From Desulfovibrionaceae bacterium (GTDB lineage: Bacteria; Desulfobacterota; Desulfovibrionia; Desulfovibrionales; Desulfovibrionaceae): DNA of 64,000 nt. Where the stretch lies: assembly GCA_029008115.1 (NCBI GenBank), contig JAQXJC010000031.1:1-64000 (forward strand), written 5' to 3'. The notes beneath the pieces are model-generated. The model was not told the DNA's origin and did no database searches. It saw only the letters and a program-made list of their open reading frames with translations. The position numbers were made by a program, and so were the translations under genes. Below, one piece after another: positions 17,306 to 45,829 of this stretch (position 1 is the first letter of the stretch; every line of letters starts with the position of its first letter).

Positions 17306-18619
17306 ATGACGAAATGTCGTTTGCTTGAAGTGCAGAGTGAGAAGGAATGGCCGGCCCTGCTGGAATGGCTGCAAGGACGCGCCAATCCTGACAATTCCGT
17401 GGAAGAAAAAGTGCGGGGCATTCTGGATGACGTCCGTGCGCGCGGCGATGCCGCCCTGCTGGACTATACGCGGCGCTTTGACTGCCCTGGTCTGGAAGAG
17501 CTGCGCGTGTCTCCGCGGGAAATTGCGGCAGCCGCCGCTGCTGTGGCGGAGGAGGATCGCGCGATCATTGCGGAGGCCGCCGCGAACATCCGGGCCTTCC
17601 ATGAGGCGCAGGTGGAAAAGTCATGGTTCCTGACCCATGAGGACGGCACGGTGCTGGGCCAGAAGGTGACGCCCGTGGATCGCGTGGGCCTGTATGTGCC
17701 CGGCGGCAAGGGCGGAGAAACGCCGCTCATTTCCAGCATGCTGATGAACGCCATTCCCGCGCGTGTGGCCGGGGTGCGGCAGATTGCCGTGGTCACGCCG
17801 CCCCGCGCCGATGGCTCCGTCAGTCCCTACATTCTTGCGGCTGCGCACCTGCTGGGCATTGAGGAAGTGTACCGCACCGGCAGCGCATGGGCCGTGGCGG
17901 CACTGGCCTATGGCACGGAGAGCATTGCGCCGGTGGATGTCATCGCCGGACCGGGAAATATCTTCGTCACCACGGCCAAGCGCCTGGTGCAGGGCCGCGT
18001 GGGCATAGACATGATCGCCGGCCCCAGCGAGGTGCTGATTCTGGCAGATGCCCAGGCTAATCCGCACTGGATTGCGGCGGACCTGCTGTCGCAGGCCGAG
18101 CATGATCCGCTGGCGTCCGCCATCTGCATTACGGACAGCCGTGCGCAGGCGGAGGCCATCCTGCGGGAACTGGGGCCGCAGTGCGATGCCCTGCCGCGCG
18201 CCTCGCTGGCGGGGGCCGCGCTGGAAAACTGGAGCGCCGTGATCGTCGTGCCGGACATGGACGCCGGGATTGCGCTTGCCAACCGCATCGCGCCGGAGCA
18301 TATGGAGCTGAGCGTGGCCGATCCGTGGGCAATGCTGCCCAGGGTGCGCCATGCGGGCGCGGTATTCATGGGGCATAACAGCCCCGAGCCGGTGGGCGAT
18401 TATTTCGCCGGGCCGAACCACGTGCTGCCCACGCTGGGCACGGCACGTTTTTCCTCCGCGCTTTCCGTGCAGACATTCTGCAAGAAAACGAGTATTATTG
18501 CCGCCTCTTCCCGGTTTGTTCAGCGCAGCGCGCAGTCCATCGCCCGTCTGGCCCGTCTGGAAGGGCTGGAGGCGCATGCCCGTTCCGTGGAATGTCGCCT
18601 TCCGAAATGCCACCAATAA
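17306..18619 (+). CDS. hisD: histidinol dehydrogenase HisD
   Basis: Zinc enzyme catalysing the last two NAD-linked oxidations from L-histidinol to L-histidine. The 437-residue protein carries GLYVPGGKGG, AGPGNIFVTTAKR, GIDMIAGPSEVLI, the QAEHD motif with Zn-binding Gln and His, IAPEHMEL, and the C-terminal GPNHVLPT. The start MTKCRLLEV was chosen (AGAGG upstream); an ATG 30 nt earlier is possible. It heads a tight run hisD-purC-fabI. Confidence 0.95.
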   Translation: MTKCRLLEVQSEKEWPALLEWLQGRANPDNSVEEKVRGILDDVRARGDAALLDYTRRFDCPGLEELRVSPREIAAAAAAVAEEDRAIIAEAAANIRAFHEAQVEKSWFLTHEDGTVLGQKVTPVDRVGLYVPGGKGGETPLISSMLMNAIPARVAGVRQIAVVTPPRADGSVSPYILAAAHLLGIEEVYRTGSAWAVAALAYGTESIAPVDVIAGPGNIFVTTAKRLVQGRVGIDMIAGPSEVLILADAQANPHWIAADLLSQAEHDPLASAICITDSRAQAEAILRELGPQCDALPRASLAGAALENWSAVIVVPDMDAGIALANRIAPEHMELSVADPWAMLPRVRHAGAVFMGHNSPEPVGDYFAGPNHVLPTLGTARFSSALSVQTFCKKTSIIAASSRFVQRSAQSIARLARLEGLEAHARSVECRLPKCHQ

Positions 18620-26555: not shown

Positions 26556-27212
26556 TTATGCTTCCCGGATCAGGGCAAGAAGCTCGCGGGCCTCATCCAC
26601 GATGCGCCACGGATGCAGAGCAGCCAGCTCCGGGCGGCTGCTGAAGCCCCAGCTTACGCTGACGACGCGCATGCCGGCATGGTGCGCCGTCTGGATGTCC
26701 ACATGGCTGTCTCCCACATAGAGACAGTCTTCCGGCGCCAGATCCATGACGTGGAGCATATCCAGCACGGCGGCGGGGTCCGGCTTCAGCGGCACGCCGG
26801 GGAGCCCGCCGCGCACTGCCGCAAAGGGAATGTCACCGAAGAAATGCGCAATGATGGGCTTTGTCCACGGATCGGGCTTGTTGGAAAGTACGCCGAGGCG
26901 CATGCCGTTTTTGCATAATTCTGTAAGAACTTCATGAATAAAAGGATAGGGGTTGCTTTTATGTAAAAATTTTTTATCATATTCCAACCGGGCCTTGCTC
27001 ACAAGCTCTTCCAGCTGTCCGGGATCGCTGACAGCCTGTGCCGGCAGCGCCTTCCTGACCAGCGTCGTGAATCCGTTCCCGACGAATTTCCTGTATGCAG
27101 CCGTGCTGTGTGTGGGGAATCCCTCCTTCTCCAGCATGGCATTGCACGCTGCGGCGATGTCCTCCAGCGTGTCGACCAGCGTACCGTCCAGATCAAAAAT
27201 CAGTCCTTTCAC
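26556..27212 (-). CDS. gph: HAD-family phosphoglycolate phosphatase-like hydrolase
   Basis: The 218-residue HAD hydrolase has motif I DLDGTLVDT at residues 6-14, motif II SNKP, motif III lysine in LKPDPA and motif IV CLYVGDSHVDIQTA. The helical cap between motifs I and II is of the Gph/PpaX type. The likely substrate is 2-phosphoglycolate, but related members take other small phosphates. An AGGAGG site precedes the ATG. A short A/T-rich patch at 26935-26985 inside the gene departs from local composition. It diverges from the LysR gene. Confidence 0.85.
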   Translation of the reverse strand: MKGLIFDLDGTLVDTLEDIAAACNAMLEKEGFPTHSTAAYRKFVGNGFTTLVRKALPAQAVSDPGQLEELVSKARLEYDKKFLHKSNPYPFIHEVLTELCKNGMRLGVLSNKPDPWTKPIIAHFFGDIPFAAVRGGLPGVPLKPDPAAVLDMLHVMDLAPEDCLYVGDSHVDIQTAHHAGMRVVSVSWGFSSRPELAALHPWRIVDEARELLALIREA

Positions 27213-28253: not shown

Positions 28254-28279
28254 TCCCGGCATGTCCTTGCCGCCTCCGT

Positions 28280-28318
28280 CCCCCGGTTCTGGACATGACC
28301 GGGGGGCTTTGCTATTTT
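28280..28318 (+). terminator. terminator between the LysR gene and the OTCase-like gene
   Basis: Stem CCCCCGGT/ACCGGGGG (28280-28287, 28298-28305) with an 10-nt loop is followed by GCTTTGCTATTTT. It ends the lysR transcript, so the next gene should have its own promoter or depend on readthrough. Confidence 0.65.
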
Positions 28319-28388
28319 ATGGCATCGAAGGAAACGGCTGGGCCGCCGCGCCTTCCGCGTGGGGCCAGTCCGGACACAGGAGGCGAAC

Positions 28389-29282
28389 ATGGTGAGAAGA
28401 GTATTCACCTTGCAGGATTTGGGTCAGGCTGGGACGTGGCTGCTCATGCAGCAGGCCAATGGCATCCCCGATCCCCGGGGACGTTCCTCCTTTATGGCGG
28501 GGCGGACGGCTCTGCTGATGTTTGCGGAAGATGGACTGGCGGATCGCCTGTGCGTGACCGCCGCCGTCCGGCAGATGGGCGGGCAGGTCGTCTACGTGTC
28601 GCAGGGGCGCTGGCTGGAGGATATGCGCCGTTTTCCCATCGAGCTTTCTCCCATCTATGACTACTATGTGGACTGCGCCTATATCATGGGCCTGAGTATC
28701 AGGAGCGCGCAGGAAAAGGAAAAATACCTTTCCCGCATTCCCACCATCAATATTTCCAGCCTGGAGGCGTCTCCGGCGCATGCCATTGCGAACCTGGCCT
28801 GCATGCTGCGCTTCTCCGGTCGCCTTGAAGGCGTGCGGGTTGCGTGGATGGGCGCGCCCAACGGCACCCTGTATTCGCTGATGCAGGCAGCCGCCTATTT
28901 TCCGTTCTCCCTGCGCATGGCCCTGCCGGATACATCCCGCCTGGACAGAAATCTTTTTGACGCGCTGATTCGGGATGGCGCGCGCCTTGAGGTGGTGGAG
29001 CAGGCTGTGGAGGCCGTGAGCGGGGCGGATTATGTCTGCGTTGGCTGCGGCGAGGGGCTGACAACGGCGCAGCTTTCCCAGTGGCAGATGGACGGCTCCC
29101 TGCTGGAGCATGCCCCCGGCGCCTACGTCATGATCACATCGCGCAACATCGCGGAAACGCTTCCCGTACTGCCGCAGATACTGGAAGGCCCGCGCAGTCT
29201 CGTGCTTTTGCAGTCGGAAAATCTTCTGCGCGTGCACAAGCGCATGCTTCACTGGGTATTTGAGGAAAACGGCGAGGACTGA
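28389..29282 (+). CDS. ornithine carbamoyltransferase-fold protein lacking catalytic motifs
   Basis: A 297-residue protein with the full-length layout of an ornithine/aspartate carbamoyltransferase: N-terminal FTLQDLGQAGTWLL, VAWMGAPNGTLYSLMQAA in place of the GDGNNVANSL motif, ADYVCVGCGEG, and the C-terminal helix LLQSENLLRVHKRML in place of DQAENRLHAQ. Catalytic motifs are gone: the carbamoyl-phosphate loop STRTR reads AEDGLADRL, HPxQ reads SPAH, and HCLP reads ITSR. It is probably a pseudoenzyme. It is a close paralog of the product at 42107-42997. AGGAGG precedes the ATG. The cellular role is unknown. Confidence 0.7.
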   Translation: MVRRVFTLQDLGQAGTWLLMQQANGIPDPRGRSSFMAGRTALLMFAEDGLADRLCVTAAVRQMGGQVVYVSQGRWLEDMRRFPIELSPIYDYYVDCAYIMGLSIRSAQEKEKYLSRIPTINISSLEASPAHAIANLACMLRFSGRLEGVRVAWMGAPNGTLYSLMQAAAYFPFSLRMALPDTSRLDRNLFDALIRDGARLEVVEQAVEAVSGADYVCVGCGEGLTTAQLSQWQMDGSLLEHAPGAYVMITSRNIAETLPVLPQILEGPRSLVLLQSENLLRVHKRMLHWVFEENGED

Positions 29283-29361: not shown

Positions 29362-29895
29362 CTATTCCATGGCGATGTCGTACTGTTCCAGCTTGTCCAG
29401 AACGGCGGCGAGGGCCATGGCCATGGTGCCCGCAATGGCAGCCGCGCAGGCGGCCGGCACATCCGGCAGGTCTTTGTGCATAAGGCGCTGGAAGAAGAGG
29501 CGGGGACATTCCTGCTGCTTTTCCAGCGCTATCTGTTCCATATAGGCGGCAAAAGGCCCGTCGATGAAGGCGTCGGCCTCCGCTTCATTCATGCCGCCGC
29601 GCGCCTGCAAGAGGGCTTTTGTCTGGCGGAGATAGGCCACAAGCACGCTGTTGGGCGCATTGCGCATCAGACCGCTGGTGACAACGGCATGGATGAAGGC
29701 GGTCCATTCCTCCAGCATGCGCCGCTGCCCTTCGCCGTACAGGTATTCTTCGGGCATGCCGGCGGCGATGGCCAGGCGCAGTACGCCCGTGGTATCGGTA
29801 TTCAGCGCGAACAGAATGCAGGCGGCTTCCACGCCCTGGCTGAAGGAAAGCGGTTTCTTTGCGGCTTCCGCCGCTTCAGGCGTTGCGGTGCTCAT
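29362..29895 (-). CDS. conserved-looking protein of unknown function, coupled to queC
   Basis: A 177-residue, mostly helical, acidic protein with no signal peptide or membrane segment. I do not recognise a family. Its ATG overlaps the queC stop (ATGA), so it is translated with queC, and it ends a three-gene unit nuclease-queC-this gene. Codon use matches its neighbours, which argues that it is a real gene. Confidence 0.75.
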
Positions 29896-30632
29896 GCGTT
29901 GCTCCTTTCCGGCGCGTGCCGGGACGGGGAGGGACCCTGCTCCAGATAGGCGGCATAGCCTGCGGCGCGCAGACGACAGGCGGGACACTGGCCGCAGCCG
30001 TAGCCCCACACGTGCCGCTTGCTGCGGTCCCCCAGATAGCAGGTGTGACTTTCTTCCAGTATTACTTCCACCAGGGCCTGACCGCCCAGTGCATGGGCAA
30101 GCTGCCATGTGGCGGCCTTGTCTATCCACATGAGCGGCGTGTGTATGACAAAGTCCGCCGCCATGCCGATATTTAACGCTACCTGCATGGCTTTCATGGC
30201 ATCGTCGCGGCAGTCTGGGTAGCCGGAGGAGTCTGTTTCGCAGACGCCAGTGACGAGATGGCGTATGCCCCTGTCATAGGCCCAGGCCGCGGCCATGGTC
30301 AGGAAGAGCAGATTGCGGCCCGGCACAAAGGTATTGGGCAGGCCGTCCTCCCGATCCGCAATGGCCATCTGCGAAGTCAGGGACGTGTTATGCAGCTGGG
30401 CAAAGAGGCCGATGTCCAGCAGGCTGTCCCCCGCAAGGCGCGCATCCCAGGCAGGATTCAGGCGGCGTATGGCTGTGCGCACCCGCTGGCGGCAGTCCAG
30501 CTCCACTTCATGCCGCTGGCCGTAGCGGTAGCCCAGCGTGGATACGGACTGGAAGTGTTCCAGCGCCCATGCCAGGCAGGTTGCGGAATCCTGGCCGCCG
30601 GAAAAGACGACGAGAGCTGCGGCATTGTCCAT
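29892..30632 (-). CDS. queC: 7-cyano-7-deazaguanine synthase QueC
   Basis: ATP-dependent enzyme converting 7-carboxy-7-deazaguanine to preQ0, on the way to queuosine in tRNA or deazapurines in DNA. The 246-residue protein has the PP-loop [33 protein letters not shown], and the zinc site with one Cys in HTCYLGD plus [17 protein letters not shown] precedes the ATG. No other queuosine genes are in the window. Confidence 0.94.
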
Positions 30633-39151: not shown

Positions 39152-41194
39152 CTAGGAAACGTCAAATCGGTCGAAAGTCATGGACAGGCCGGCGCGGCCC
39201 TGCGTGGCGGAACGCAGGGAGGTGGCAAAGCCGAAGAGCTGGCGCAGGGGCGCCATGCCCTGCATGGCCTTCTGCCCGGCGTGATCCAGCAGGCTGAGCA
39301 CCTTGCCGCCGCAGGAGGCGAACAGGTTCAGGGCGGCGCCCAGCTGCGCTTCGGGAACGGAAATTTCCACGCGCATGATCGGTTCCAGGGCAACGGGATC
39401 GGCATGCTGTGCCGCATTCCTCAGGGCCAGAGCCGCCGCCATGCGGCAGCCGACTGCCGACGTCTCGTTTCTGCGGTATTCCATGCCGGTGATGACAACG
39501 GCGACATCTTCCATAGGATAGCCGGTGAGGATGCCGCTCTGGAGCGCATCGCCTACGCCCTCCAGCGCCGCCTGCACCAGCGCGGCAGGAATGATCCTGG
39601 CTGCTTCCTGCGGGTCCTCCGGCAGAAAATCCCCCAGAGAGATTGTATTCCCCCGCGTGCGTTCGCGCGGCTCCAGACGCAGGCTGACACAGCCCACATG
39701 GCGTTCCCTGCCCAGTTCGCGATCAAATTCTCCCCGGCCCTCCGCCATGCCGCGAACGGTTTCGCGCAGCACAGCCTGCGGGCGTCCGGCCCGGGGGCGG
39801 ATGCCGTATTCGCGCCGCATGCGCTCAAGGACAACATCCAGGTGCAGCTCGCCCATGCCGGAAAGCATGCGCGATCCGGACTCCTCGTCCACGCGCAGGG
39901 TCAGCGTGGGGTCTTCCTCCGCATAGCGGGCGAGGGCCTCGTCCAGCGTCTTTCCCTCATCGGCATTGAGCGGCTCCAGCGCCAGCGTGATCACCGGGGC
40001 GCAGGTGCGGATAGGCTCCATGAGGACGGGATGAGCGCGGCTGGCGTAGGTTTCTCCCGTATGCGCGGAGCGCAGTCCCGTGACGGCAACGATTTCGCCG
40101 GCCACGGCCTCGTCTATCTGCTCGCGGCGGTCGGCATGCAGGCGGTAGATATGTCCCACGCGATCTTCCCTGCCGCTGTTCACATGCAGGATTGACGCGC
40201 CGCTGGCAATACTGCCGGCATACAGGCGAATGAAGGAAAATTTCTGCCCATGCTCAACCATGACTTTAAAGACAAGCGCGGCAAGCGGTGCTTCGGCCCC
40301 TGTGTCCACAAGCAGCTCTTCGCCGTTCAGGTCATGTCCCACAGGCGCGGAGGCGTCCGCAGGGGAGGGGAGCAGGGCGCAGATGGCGTCCAGTACGGGC
40401 TGGATGCCGATATTGCGGAGCGCCGAACCGCAGAGCACGGGAGTACCGCGCCGTGACAGCGTGATGCGGCGCAGGGCGGCCATGATCCCCTCTTCCGAAA
40501 CATCGCCGCCAAGGTACTGTTCCATAAAAAGGTCGTCCAGATCGGCAACCGCTTCCAGCAGTTCCTCCCGCCAGCGGGCGGCCATCTCCGCCTCGGCGCC
40601 CTCCAGCGGCAGGCGCGTACAGGTACGGCCCTGATCCTCCTGCGAGAAGACGAGCTTTTCCTGCCGGACGAGATCGATGACGCCGGAAAAACTGTCGCCC
40701 TCTCCCGCAGGGATATGCAGGGGCAGCGGGCGGGCGTCCAGCCTGTCGCGCATCTGGCCCAGCACGCCTTCAAAGCTGGCGCCGGCCCTGTCCATCTTGT
40801 TGATGAAGGCCAGCTTGGGCACGCCGAAGTTTTCGGACTGGCGCCACACGGTCTCGGACTGCGGCTCTACGCCGCCCACGGCACAGAACACCCCCACCGC
40901 GCCGTCCAGCACCCGCAGGGCCCGCTCCACCTCAATGGTGAAGTCCACATGCCCGGGCGTGTCGATAAGGTTGATGGTGGTGTCGTGCCAGGTGCAGGTT
41001 GTGCCGGCAGAGGCTATGGTAATGCCGCGTTCCTGCTCTTCCGGCATGAAGTCCATGGTGGCAGTGCCGTCGTGAACCTCGCCCATGCGATGAATTTTTC
41101 TGGTATAGAAAAGAATGCGTTCGCTCAGCGTGGTCTTGCCCGCGTCAATGTGCGCGATAATGCCGATATTGCGGATGCTATTCAGCGCCTTCAT
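39152..41194 (-). CDS. elongation factor G-type GTPase (probable second EF-G)
   Basis: Translational GTPase, 680 residues, with all EF-G domains. Motifs are AHIDAGKTT, the switch [17 protein letters not shown], domain II, the [18 protein letters not shown] signature and domain IV/V. It is not in a str operon (no rpsL, rpsG or tuf nearby) and lies between two unusual genes and rsmA. That suggests a paralog (EF-G2/FusB type) rather than the main elongation factor. Start [12 protein letters not shown] has GGAGG; it overlaps the end of the HisD-like gene by 17 nt. Confidence 0.85.
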
Positions 41195-42086
41195 ACCCGC
41201 CTCCGCCAAAGAAGTCCGTTGCCGGCAGGTGAAGGCCGGCAGTGCGTGCACGGTTTCGAAAAAAATCCGGGTGCAGATGCGGATGCAGCCAGCATCCTTC
41301 CATATCCGGGCCCAGTATCAGCGGCAGGCCGGCGGACAGCCAGCCAAGGTGCTCCGGTGCGGCGAAGCACGCATCGCAGGCAGGCAGCTCTTCGGCAGCG
41401 GAGAATGTCCGAGCCTGTTCGCCGGCATCGCCATGCGCGAAGATCAGAGCATTGCTGTCCACCTCTGCGGCCGCATCCAGAGCCAGTCGCGGCGGGGCCG
41501 CCTCTTCCATGCAGGGAATGCCAAGCGCTGCGGCGGCGAGGCGCAGCGAGGCCAGGGCGTTTCCGTCGTGGAGCAGGCAAAGGCGTCCTGCCGCCGGCGT
41601 CTCCTGCCGGCCCTGCTGCGCCTGCAATTCGCGGAGCAGGGTGTCAGCCTGATCCACAGAGACAATGAAGCTGTCTTCCACGCCTGCCAGCTCCAGCACG
41701 GCGCGCACGCTTTCATGAGGCATGCCGCCGAGGCAGAGCAGGGCAATCCGCGGCACGCGGGCCAGTATGGCCGGCATGATGGCCGCGGCCAGCCGGGCGG
41801 GCGCACGGTAGGCCGGCGTTACGGCAAACAGAGCCCAGGGGGCGGCGCTTTCGCGCAGGACATGCCAGAAGCCCTGTCCGCTGTGCGCGGTGGCGTGCAG
41901 AAGGTCTTCCGGCGATTCACCGTACACGCTCTGACAGAGGGCGAGGCATTGCTTGATACCGGCGCGGTACGGCATGGGCGTGCGGTCGTAGGCATCGGCC
42001 AGGGCGCTGTCCTCCACGCGGCAGGTATCCAGCCAGAGGGGCCAGCCGGCGGATGATGGAGGCGGAGGGGGAAAGTGTGGCAGCAT
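41178..42086 (-). CDS. degenerate histidinol dehydrogenase-like protein
   Basis: A 302-residue protein with no assigned function. Residues 95-150 ([19 protein letters not shown] to [16 protein letters not shown]) align by eye with HisD around its NAIPARVAGVRQIAVV region. Residues 189-223 follow the GIDMIAGPSEVLILAD block. APEHL at 243-247 matches the HisD APEHM. The zinc/catalytic QAEHD motif reads FAHGD and the C-terminal GPNHVLPT part is missing, so histidinol oxidation is unlikely. AGGAG precedes the ATG. It lies 20 nt after the OTCase-like gene and overlaps the EF-G gene by 17 nt. Confidence 0.6.
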
Positions 42087-43107: not shown

Positions 43108-44496
43108 CTAGTCCTGCGCGGCGATCCATGCTCGCAGGTCCGCAATCTGGCGGGCCACGGAGCACGGTCCGGTGCCGCCTCTGGTCTCGCGGCGGCGCAC
43201 GGCTGCCTCATAGTCCAGCACGGCGTACACGTCTTCATCAATACGGTCGCACATGGCGCGCAGTTCCTCCAGCGCGAGGTCTTCCAGGCCCTTGCCCTGG
43301 CGCTCGGCCTCCGCCACGGCGGCGCCCGTAATGTGGTGTGCTTCGCGGAAAGGAATGCCCTTGCCCACAAGGTAGTCTGCCAGCTCGGTGGCATTGAGGA
43401 AGCCGGCCTTGCAGGCGGAGCGCATGCGGACGGTATTGAATGCCAGCTCGCCCATCATGCCCTCCATGATCTGGAGGGAGGTGCTGAGGGTGCGGTCGGC
43501 ATCAAGGAAGGGCTCCTTGTCTTCCTGAAGATCGCGGTTGTAGGTGAGGGGAAGTCCCTTCATGATGGTCATCATGGCGGCCAGACTGCCATAGACGCGG
43601 CCGACCTTGCCGCGCATGAGCTCCGCCACGTCGGGGTTCTTCTTCTGCGGCATGATGGACGATCCGGTGGCGTAGCCGTCCGGCAGGCGCACGAAGCCGA
43701 AGGCCGGATTGGCCCAGATGATGATCTCCTCGCAGCAGCGGGAGAGGTGCATCATGGTGCAGGACGCCACAAACAGGGCCTCCATGACAAAATCGCGGTC
43801 TGCCACGGCGTCCATGGAGTTGCTGAACGTGCCGTTCATGCCGAGGTCGGCGGCAACGGATTCCGGATCAAGGGGATAGGTGGTGCCGGCCAGAGCGGCG
43901 GCGCCCAGGGGAGAGACGCGCACGCGCCGCTCGCAGTCGGCCATGCGCTCGGCATCGCGCTTGAGCATCCATGCGTAGGCCAGCAGGTGGTGCGCAAGGC
44001 TGACGGGCTGGGCCGGCTGCATGTGCGTGCATCCGGGCAGGATGTCTCCCTGATGCGATTCCGCGCGGGACACGTACATGGCGGCCAGCTTCACGGCAAG
44101 TTCGCGCCATGCGCGCAGGCGGTCTGCCATGAAGAGGCGGAAGCTCAGACATACCTGATCATTGCGGCTGCGGCCGGTGTGGAGCTTCTTGCCCACGTTG
44201 CCTACCAGCTCGGTGAGGCGCGCCTCAATGTTCATGTGTACGTCTTCCAGATCGGCCTTCCAGACGAAGCTGCCATCCTCGATTTCTGCCTTGACGCGCT
44301 CCAGACCGTCCACCAGCGTTGCCGCCTCGTCGGGAGTGATGACTCCCTGACGACCGAGCATGCGTGCGTGGGCCTGGGAGCCGCGGATGTCGTGGGCGTA
44401 GAGGGCGCGGTCGAAGGATTCGGATTCCGTGTAGGCCGCCACGGCCTCTTCCGGGCCTTTGGCAAAGCGTCCGCCCCATGAAATATTCTTGCTCAT
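43108..44496 (-). CDS. argH: argininosuccinate lyase ArgH
   Basis: Cleaves argininosuccinate to arginine and fumarate. The 462-residue protein of the fumarase/aspartase superfamily begins [20 protein letters not shown]. It has [10 protein letters not shown] and the signature [20 protein letters not shown], with the catalytic Ser in that loop. The ribosome site before its ATG is weak. It follows argG by 124 nt on the same strand, with a GC-rich hairpin between them. Confidence 0.95.

Positions 44497-44620: not shown

Positions 44621-45829
<1,209 letters not shown>

Follow-up and report, generated by a model that had tools for sequence, protein, structure and literature searches.

A catalytically degenerate ornithine carbamoyltransferase-fold protein under purifying selection in a group of Desulfovibrionaceae

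The P1 gene, its locus and its distribution

We analysed a 64,000-nucleotide stretch of DNA from a Desulfovibrionaceae bacterium (contig JAQXJC010000031.1 of assembly GCA_029008115.1; the window), focusing on the gene at 28389-29282 (+ strand). The gene encodes a 297-residue non-catalytic protein with the ornithine carbamoyltransferase (OTCase) fold (P1), identified by full-length two-domain OTCase homology, loss of the four catalytic motifs and orthologs in three genera: g1 (the genus of the window), g4 and g40 (g35, g39 and g42, used below, are likewise codes for other genera). The open reading frame is real. It starts with ATG, runs for 297 codons and is preceded by a Shine-Dalgarno sequence, AGGAGG (28378-28383, + strand; read from the sequence), 5 bases before the ATG, and the start codon agrees with the ortholog alignment, in which the orthologs of P1 begin at the same residue.

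Both domains of the transcarbamylase fold superfamily, OTCace_N and OTCace, are recognised in P1 by their Pfam profiles (31.9 and 35.5 bits, both above the curated gathering cut-offs). The scores of P1 against the OTCase family profiles are far below the respective cut-offs (TIGR00658, 71.9 against 280.85; NF001986, 89.5 against 306). A profile of 17 P1 orthologs matched solved OTCases with an E value of 1e-33 over residues 3-294. An AF2 monomer model of P1 made from three sequences was of low confidence (mean pLDDT 49.9), and the cleft positions discussed below were placed by alignment to the solved OTCases alone.

The usual P1 locus has a divergent gph gene on one side and queC, a nuclease gene, rpoD and dnaG on the other. 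In the window the gph-type HAD phosphatase gene lies at 26556-27212 (- strand); most genomes that retain an intact locus have it transcribed divergently from P1. A gene for a LysR-type regulator, recognised by profiles and matched at no other locus of the comparison, stands between gph and P1 (27360-28253, + strand); its product is closest to CidR (188 bits, below the cut-off of 415). Because a terminator-like hairpin following the LysR gene (28278-28307) and an overlapping promoter-like site (28290-28318) precede P1 on the + strand (28278-28318 together), these pattern matches, which lie near the expectation from shuffled sequence, weakly suggest that P1 may be transcribed on its own. Between P1 and queC lies a gene (29362-30051, - strand) whose product has no Pfam match and which occupies the same place in g1, g4 and g40. 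P1 has no general operon partner: only gph, divergently transcribed, is widely conserved, and an operon-based function for P1 was rejected on that ground. In a minority of the 58 loci, all from g40 and not including the window, a split ThrE exporter (N- and C-terminal parts encoded by two genes) lies directly downstream of P1 (L102:9220-10628, L103, L104, L105, L107, L112, L180-L182, L204, L217 and others).

Among 348 genomes of the order, P1 was found in 69 genomes of g40, in 3/3 of g1 and in the one genome of g4; the matches listed contained none from elsewhere in the order. The scores leave a wide gap between P1 (at least 334 bits for the first full-length copies) and native ArgF, the anabolic OTCase of the PRK00779/NF001986 type (at most 191 bits). 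A phylum-level sample (395 genomes from 246 genera) contained no further P1, two scans of viral contigs returned zero relatives, and P1 was described nowhere in the papers found by literature searches. P1 is missing from at least 10 g40 genomes, some of them incomplete and one complete at 1.4 Mb (G322); many genomes are drafts, in which a single absence carries little weight. Since these g40 genomes, including the complete one, are without P1, its role is not essential everywhere. Two g40 genomes, drafts with 3% contamination, each carry two different P1-like genes (G279, L214 and L215; G272, L211 and L216), one of which sits in each case at the usual locus in reversed orientation.

The former active site and selection on P1

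Three motifs, FxxxSxRT, HPxQ and HxLP, are the hallmark of the transcarbamylase family, and OTCases have DxxxSMG in addition (PMC4581275). All four motifs are absent in 58/58 P1 sequences, and all four are kept by each of the 15 native ArgF and 8 ArgF2 sequences in the comparison, ArgF2 being the intact ArgF of the genome analysed here. In the P1 of the window, FAEDGLAD stands for FEKxSTRT, SPAH for HPxQ, GCGEGLT for DVWxSMG and TSRN for HCLP. Across P1, the Arg and Thr of the SxRT site are missing from the common states, and Glu or Asp replaces the phosphate-binding Thr in 57/58 sequences. Most orthologs have HPAH at the HPxQ site; at the HxLP site they have LSAS or similar, and the motif is unrecognisable. 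The Asp of DxxxSMG has become Gly in 58/58.

Several former active-site positions are fixed to new residues in the 58 P1 sequences (E52, 97%; W75, 95%; G159, 100%; G219, 100%), the Gln of the 80s loop being replaced by Trp in 95%, and R221 is a further position of the former cleft that has been re-fixed. Since these positions are fixed to new residues, the former cleft of P1 seems, from the alignments, to have been remodelled rather than abandoned. The P1 of the window is among the more diverged copies, with Leu for R279 (ENL for ENR) and Ser for H128.

In informative close pairs, dN/dS of P1 is mostly 0.02-0.13, and in 8 of the 9 close pairs in which both genes were measured it is lower than that of gph; the ninth pair has hardly any changes. 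P1 is thus a working protein under tight constraint. An earlier note on this DNA had proposed that P1 is a pseudoenzyme with a retained function, and the strong purifying selection bears out the retained function.

P2 and the origin of P1

The genome contains four genes of the OTC fold: P1, a second non-catalytic paralog (P2), the intact ArgF2, which lies upstream of argB on contig C24, and an intact PyrB on contig C44. ArgF2 scores above the curated cut-offs of both NF003286 and TIGR00658 and is only ~20% identical to P1. With this intact ArgF2 present, P1 is dispensable for arginine in this genome. A strict link between P1 and arginine biosynthesis was also rejected: G322 has argF2 and argH without P1, and G268 (a draft) has P1 without a clear argH.

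P2 (42107-42997, - strand; 296 residues), characterised by BLASTP, domain and family profiles and the tree, lies downstream of argH. The argG (44621-45829) and argH (43108-44496) genes, identified from their translations, are transcribed towards P2 (43108-45829 together, - strand) and belong to the cluster (c10/c7) common to argF-argG-argH operons. P1 and P2 are identical at 72/226 positions in BLASTP (32%; 95 bits, E 3e-27). The earlier note had counted 23 of 41 identical residues by eye in the central domain, which matches the 23/43 in the alignment of residues 146-188. It had also held that the two proteins lost the same active-site motifs, and all four (SxRT, HPxQ, DxxxSMG and HxLP) are indeed missing in both, the corresponding sites of P2 reading TAHRTLED, HPAL, GAGPRAE and TAET.

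The proposed paralogy of P1 and P2 was confirmed by phylogenetic analysis. In the final tree the two are sister clades (support 98/97*), and together with a third degenerate form (X) they make up one starred clade (100/95*) placed inside the native ArgF of Desulfovibrionaceae. Trees in which P1 or P2 was pulled away from the other were rejected by AU tests (p = 0.0025 and 0.0008), so that the outcome named in the earlier note as refuting its reading, a phylogeny with the two proteins in separate OTCase clades, did not occur. A grouping of P1 with ArgF2 was likewise rejected (p = 0.003); the tree and this test rule out an origin of P1 by recent duplication of ArgF2. A tree in which native ArgF was held together was not rejected (p 0.23), and P1, P2 and X may therefore lie inside or beside native ArgF.

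In the tree, native ArgF is the clade closest to P1, P2 and X, and its family is also the one that each of them matches best. P1 has the same length as native ArgF and is homologous to it over both domains, whereas P1 and P2 are without all four motifs and score ~60-106 bits against the family cut-off of 306. Three g42 genomes carry X immediately before argG-argH and on the same strand; in other genera this position is occupied by native argF, as the first gene of argF-argG-argH operons. P1, P2 and X have in common three derived states at the former active site, W75, G123 and G159 in P1 numbering, which replace Gln, Leu and Asn, respectively. Across 29 Desulfovibrionaceae genomes, native ArgF (NF001986 type) and ArgF2 are mutually exclusive, and P1 and P2 occur only alongside ArgF2. 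In the other families of the order, P1 relatives have scores like those of native ArgF, so that the native type is probably ancestral.

Because X sits in the argF slot and the three degenerate forms have both a clade and a set of replacements in common, it appears that ArgF2 displaced the native argF, which died in place once and then duplicated; we infer the displacement, its direction and its cause. The most economical history has a single displacement, a single loss of catalysis and a later duplication. In an ancestor of these genera, a foreign-type ArgF2 would have taken over citrulline synthesis, and the native argF, within its argF-argG-argH operon, would then have lost its catalytic residues in place. 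The dead gene would have duplicated in the ancestor of g1, g4 and g40, one copy moving next to gph (P1) and the other staying near argG-argH (P2).

A degenerate HisD-like protein (family c19) is encoded between P2 and a second EF-G gene (41178-42086, - strand). The product itself has no Pfam match, and its ortholog in G008 has a sub-threshold match to Pfam HisD (24.4 bits, E 1.9e-5). The earlier note had considered this protein as a possible partner in a complex with the two paralogs. Family c19, often located before an EF-G gene, is present in 16/16 Desulfovibrionaceae genomes tested, whatever their P1 or P2 status, and is thus a family-wide feature with no specific tie to P1 or P2. The HisD-like protein may be a second displaced or degenerate enzyme. 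A genuine HisD is encoded in the same window at 17384-18601 (+ strand).

Possible functions of P1

We put at roughly 60% the probability that P1 is a dead native OTCase kept for a putative non-catalytic binding role, as a sensor or as a regulatory or scaffold trimer, with a remodelled cleft. P1 would most likely still fold as a two-domain OTC trimer, as expected from homology, and would act by binding rather than catalysis, either as a small-molecule sensor or as a regulatory or scaffold subunit. A ligand could be bound in the remodelled cleft between subunits, where Trp replaces the 80s-loop Gln that normally reaches the neighbouring site, Glu stands at the phosphate-binding Thr, and glycines stand at the ornithine-binding Asn and Asp. 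We favour a binding role with modest confidence because the cleft seems remodelled. The broader proposal, that a transcarbamylase fold has been turned into a dedicated metabolite-sensing or scaffold protein and so into a new non-catalytic family specific to one bacterial group, is tentative, and we consider it possible rather than probable.

The re-fixed rather than variable cleft positions (E52, W75, H131 and R221) would also be expected if P1 were a novel enzyme, a transcarbamylase or a lyase, acting on another substrate in the old cleft by means of other catalytic residues, and most P1 sequences keep the His and Pro of HPxQ. We nevertheless regard a new enzyme as quite unlikely, as P1 has lost, all together, HPxQ, HxLP, the SxRT residues Arg and Thr and the Arg corresponding to native R104 (which we take to be the equivalent of E. 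coli R106). Every characterised member of the family has the carbamoyl-phosphate site that these elements form, although known members do differ widely at the site of the second substrate (PMC4581275). A Glu or Asp at the phosphate-binding Thr should, moreover, repel phosphate. Slow decay of a pseudogene would account for the lost catalytic motifs and for the divergence of the window copy (R279 to L, H128 to S), but it is ruled out for practical purposes by the low dN/dS with gph as control, and intact reading frames in ~70 genomes, the conserved position and the fixed new residues argue against it as well.

Two further alternatives give P1 a protein partner. P1 could form mixed trimers with an active transcarbamylase, either ArgF2 or PyrB, and regulate or stabilise it: the fold is the same, P1 is found only in ArgF2 genomes among those compared, and activation of an enzyme by a dead paralog is a known theme, for example in the deoxyhypusine synthase of trypanosomatids (PMC3663545). 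Such a role is improbable, since ArgF2 works without P1 in g39, g35 and g42 genomes, the complete P1-less g40 genome G322 has ArgF2 and argH, and P1 descends from native ArgF and not from ArgF2. The other partner would be P2, and the earlier note had suggested that the two paralogs act as hetero-oligomer partners. They are sister paralogs, and every P2 genome in the set also has P1. The range of P2 is narrower, however (g1, g4 and one g40 genome), and P1 is kept and conserved without P2 in 14 of the 15 g40 genomes tested; P1 therefore cannot need P2 in general, and this part of the earlier interpretation falls, while the paralogous pseudoenzyme with a retained function stands. P2 also evolves faster (dN/dS 0.19 within g1) and has lost the C-terminal helix motif ENRLxxxK, which P1 keeps. 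An obligate pairing of P1 with P2 is accordingly very improbable.

A non-catalytic binding role of P1 would have parallels in other conserved, catalytically dead paralogs of metabolic enzymes, such as the deoxyhypusine synthase paralog (PMC3663545) and the ornithine decarboxylase antizyme inhibitor (PMC10762828). Those proteins have other folds and share an active partner or a ligand with a close paralog, whereas P1 is related only distantly to the active ArgF2. Transcarbamylase-like sequences without the essential motifs occur in many genomes, and they were left unnamed and read as possible new enzymes (PMC4581275); for P1, in contrast, an origin from a displaced native argF has been traced and selection has been measured. 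The birth of this pseudoenzyme is unusually traceable, in that related genomes still show native ArgF as the ancestor, ArgF2 as its replacement, X as an intermediate in the old slot, and the two later copies. Homology-based annotation of Desulfovibrio genomes is likely to label P1 an ornithine carbamoyltransferase, and metabolic models would be misled by such a label.

The knotted transcarbamylase YgeW, whose reaction is unknown (PMC11326118, PMC4581275), has the same fold as P1, but P1 at 297 residues has no room for the knot insertions, and the YgeW profiles TIGR03316 and NF005538 gave no match to P1 at E values up to 10. An extra transcarbamylase that is possibly YgeW-like occurs in a few g40 genomes (G189, L131; G296; G269; G322), scoring ~86 bits against OTCace_N.
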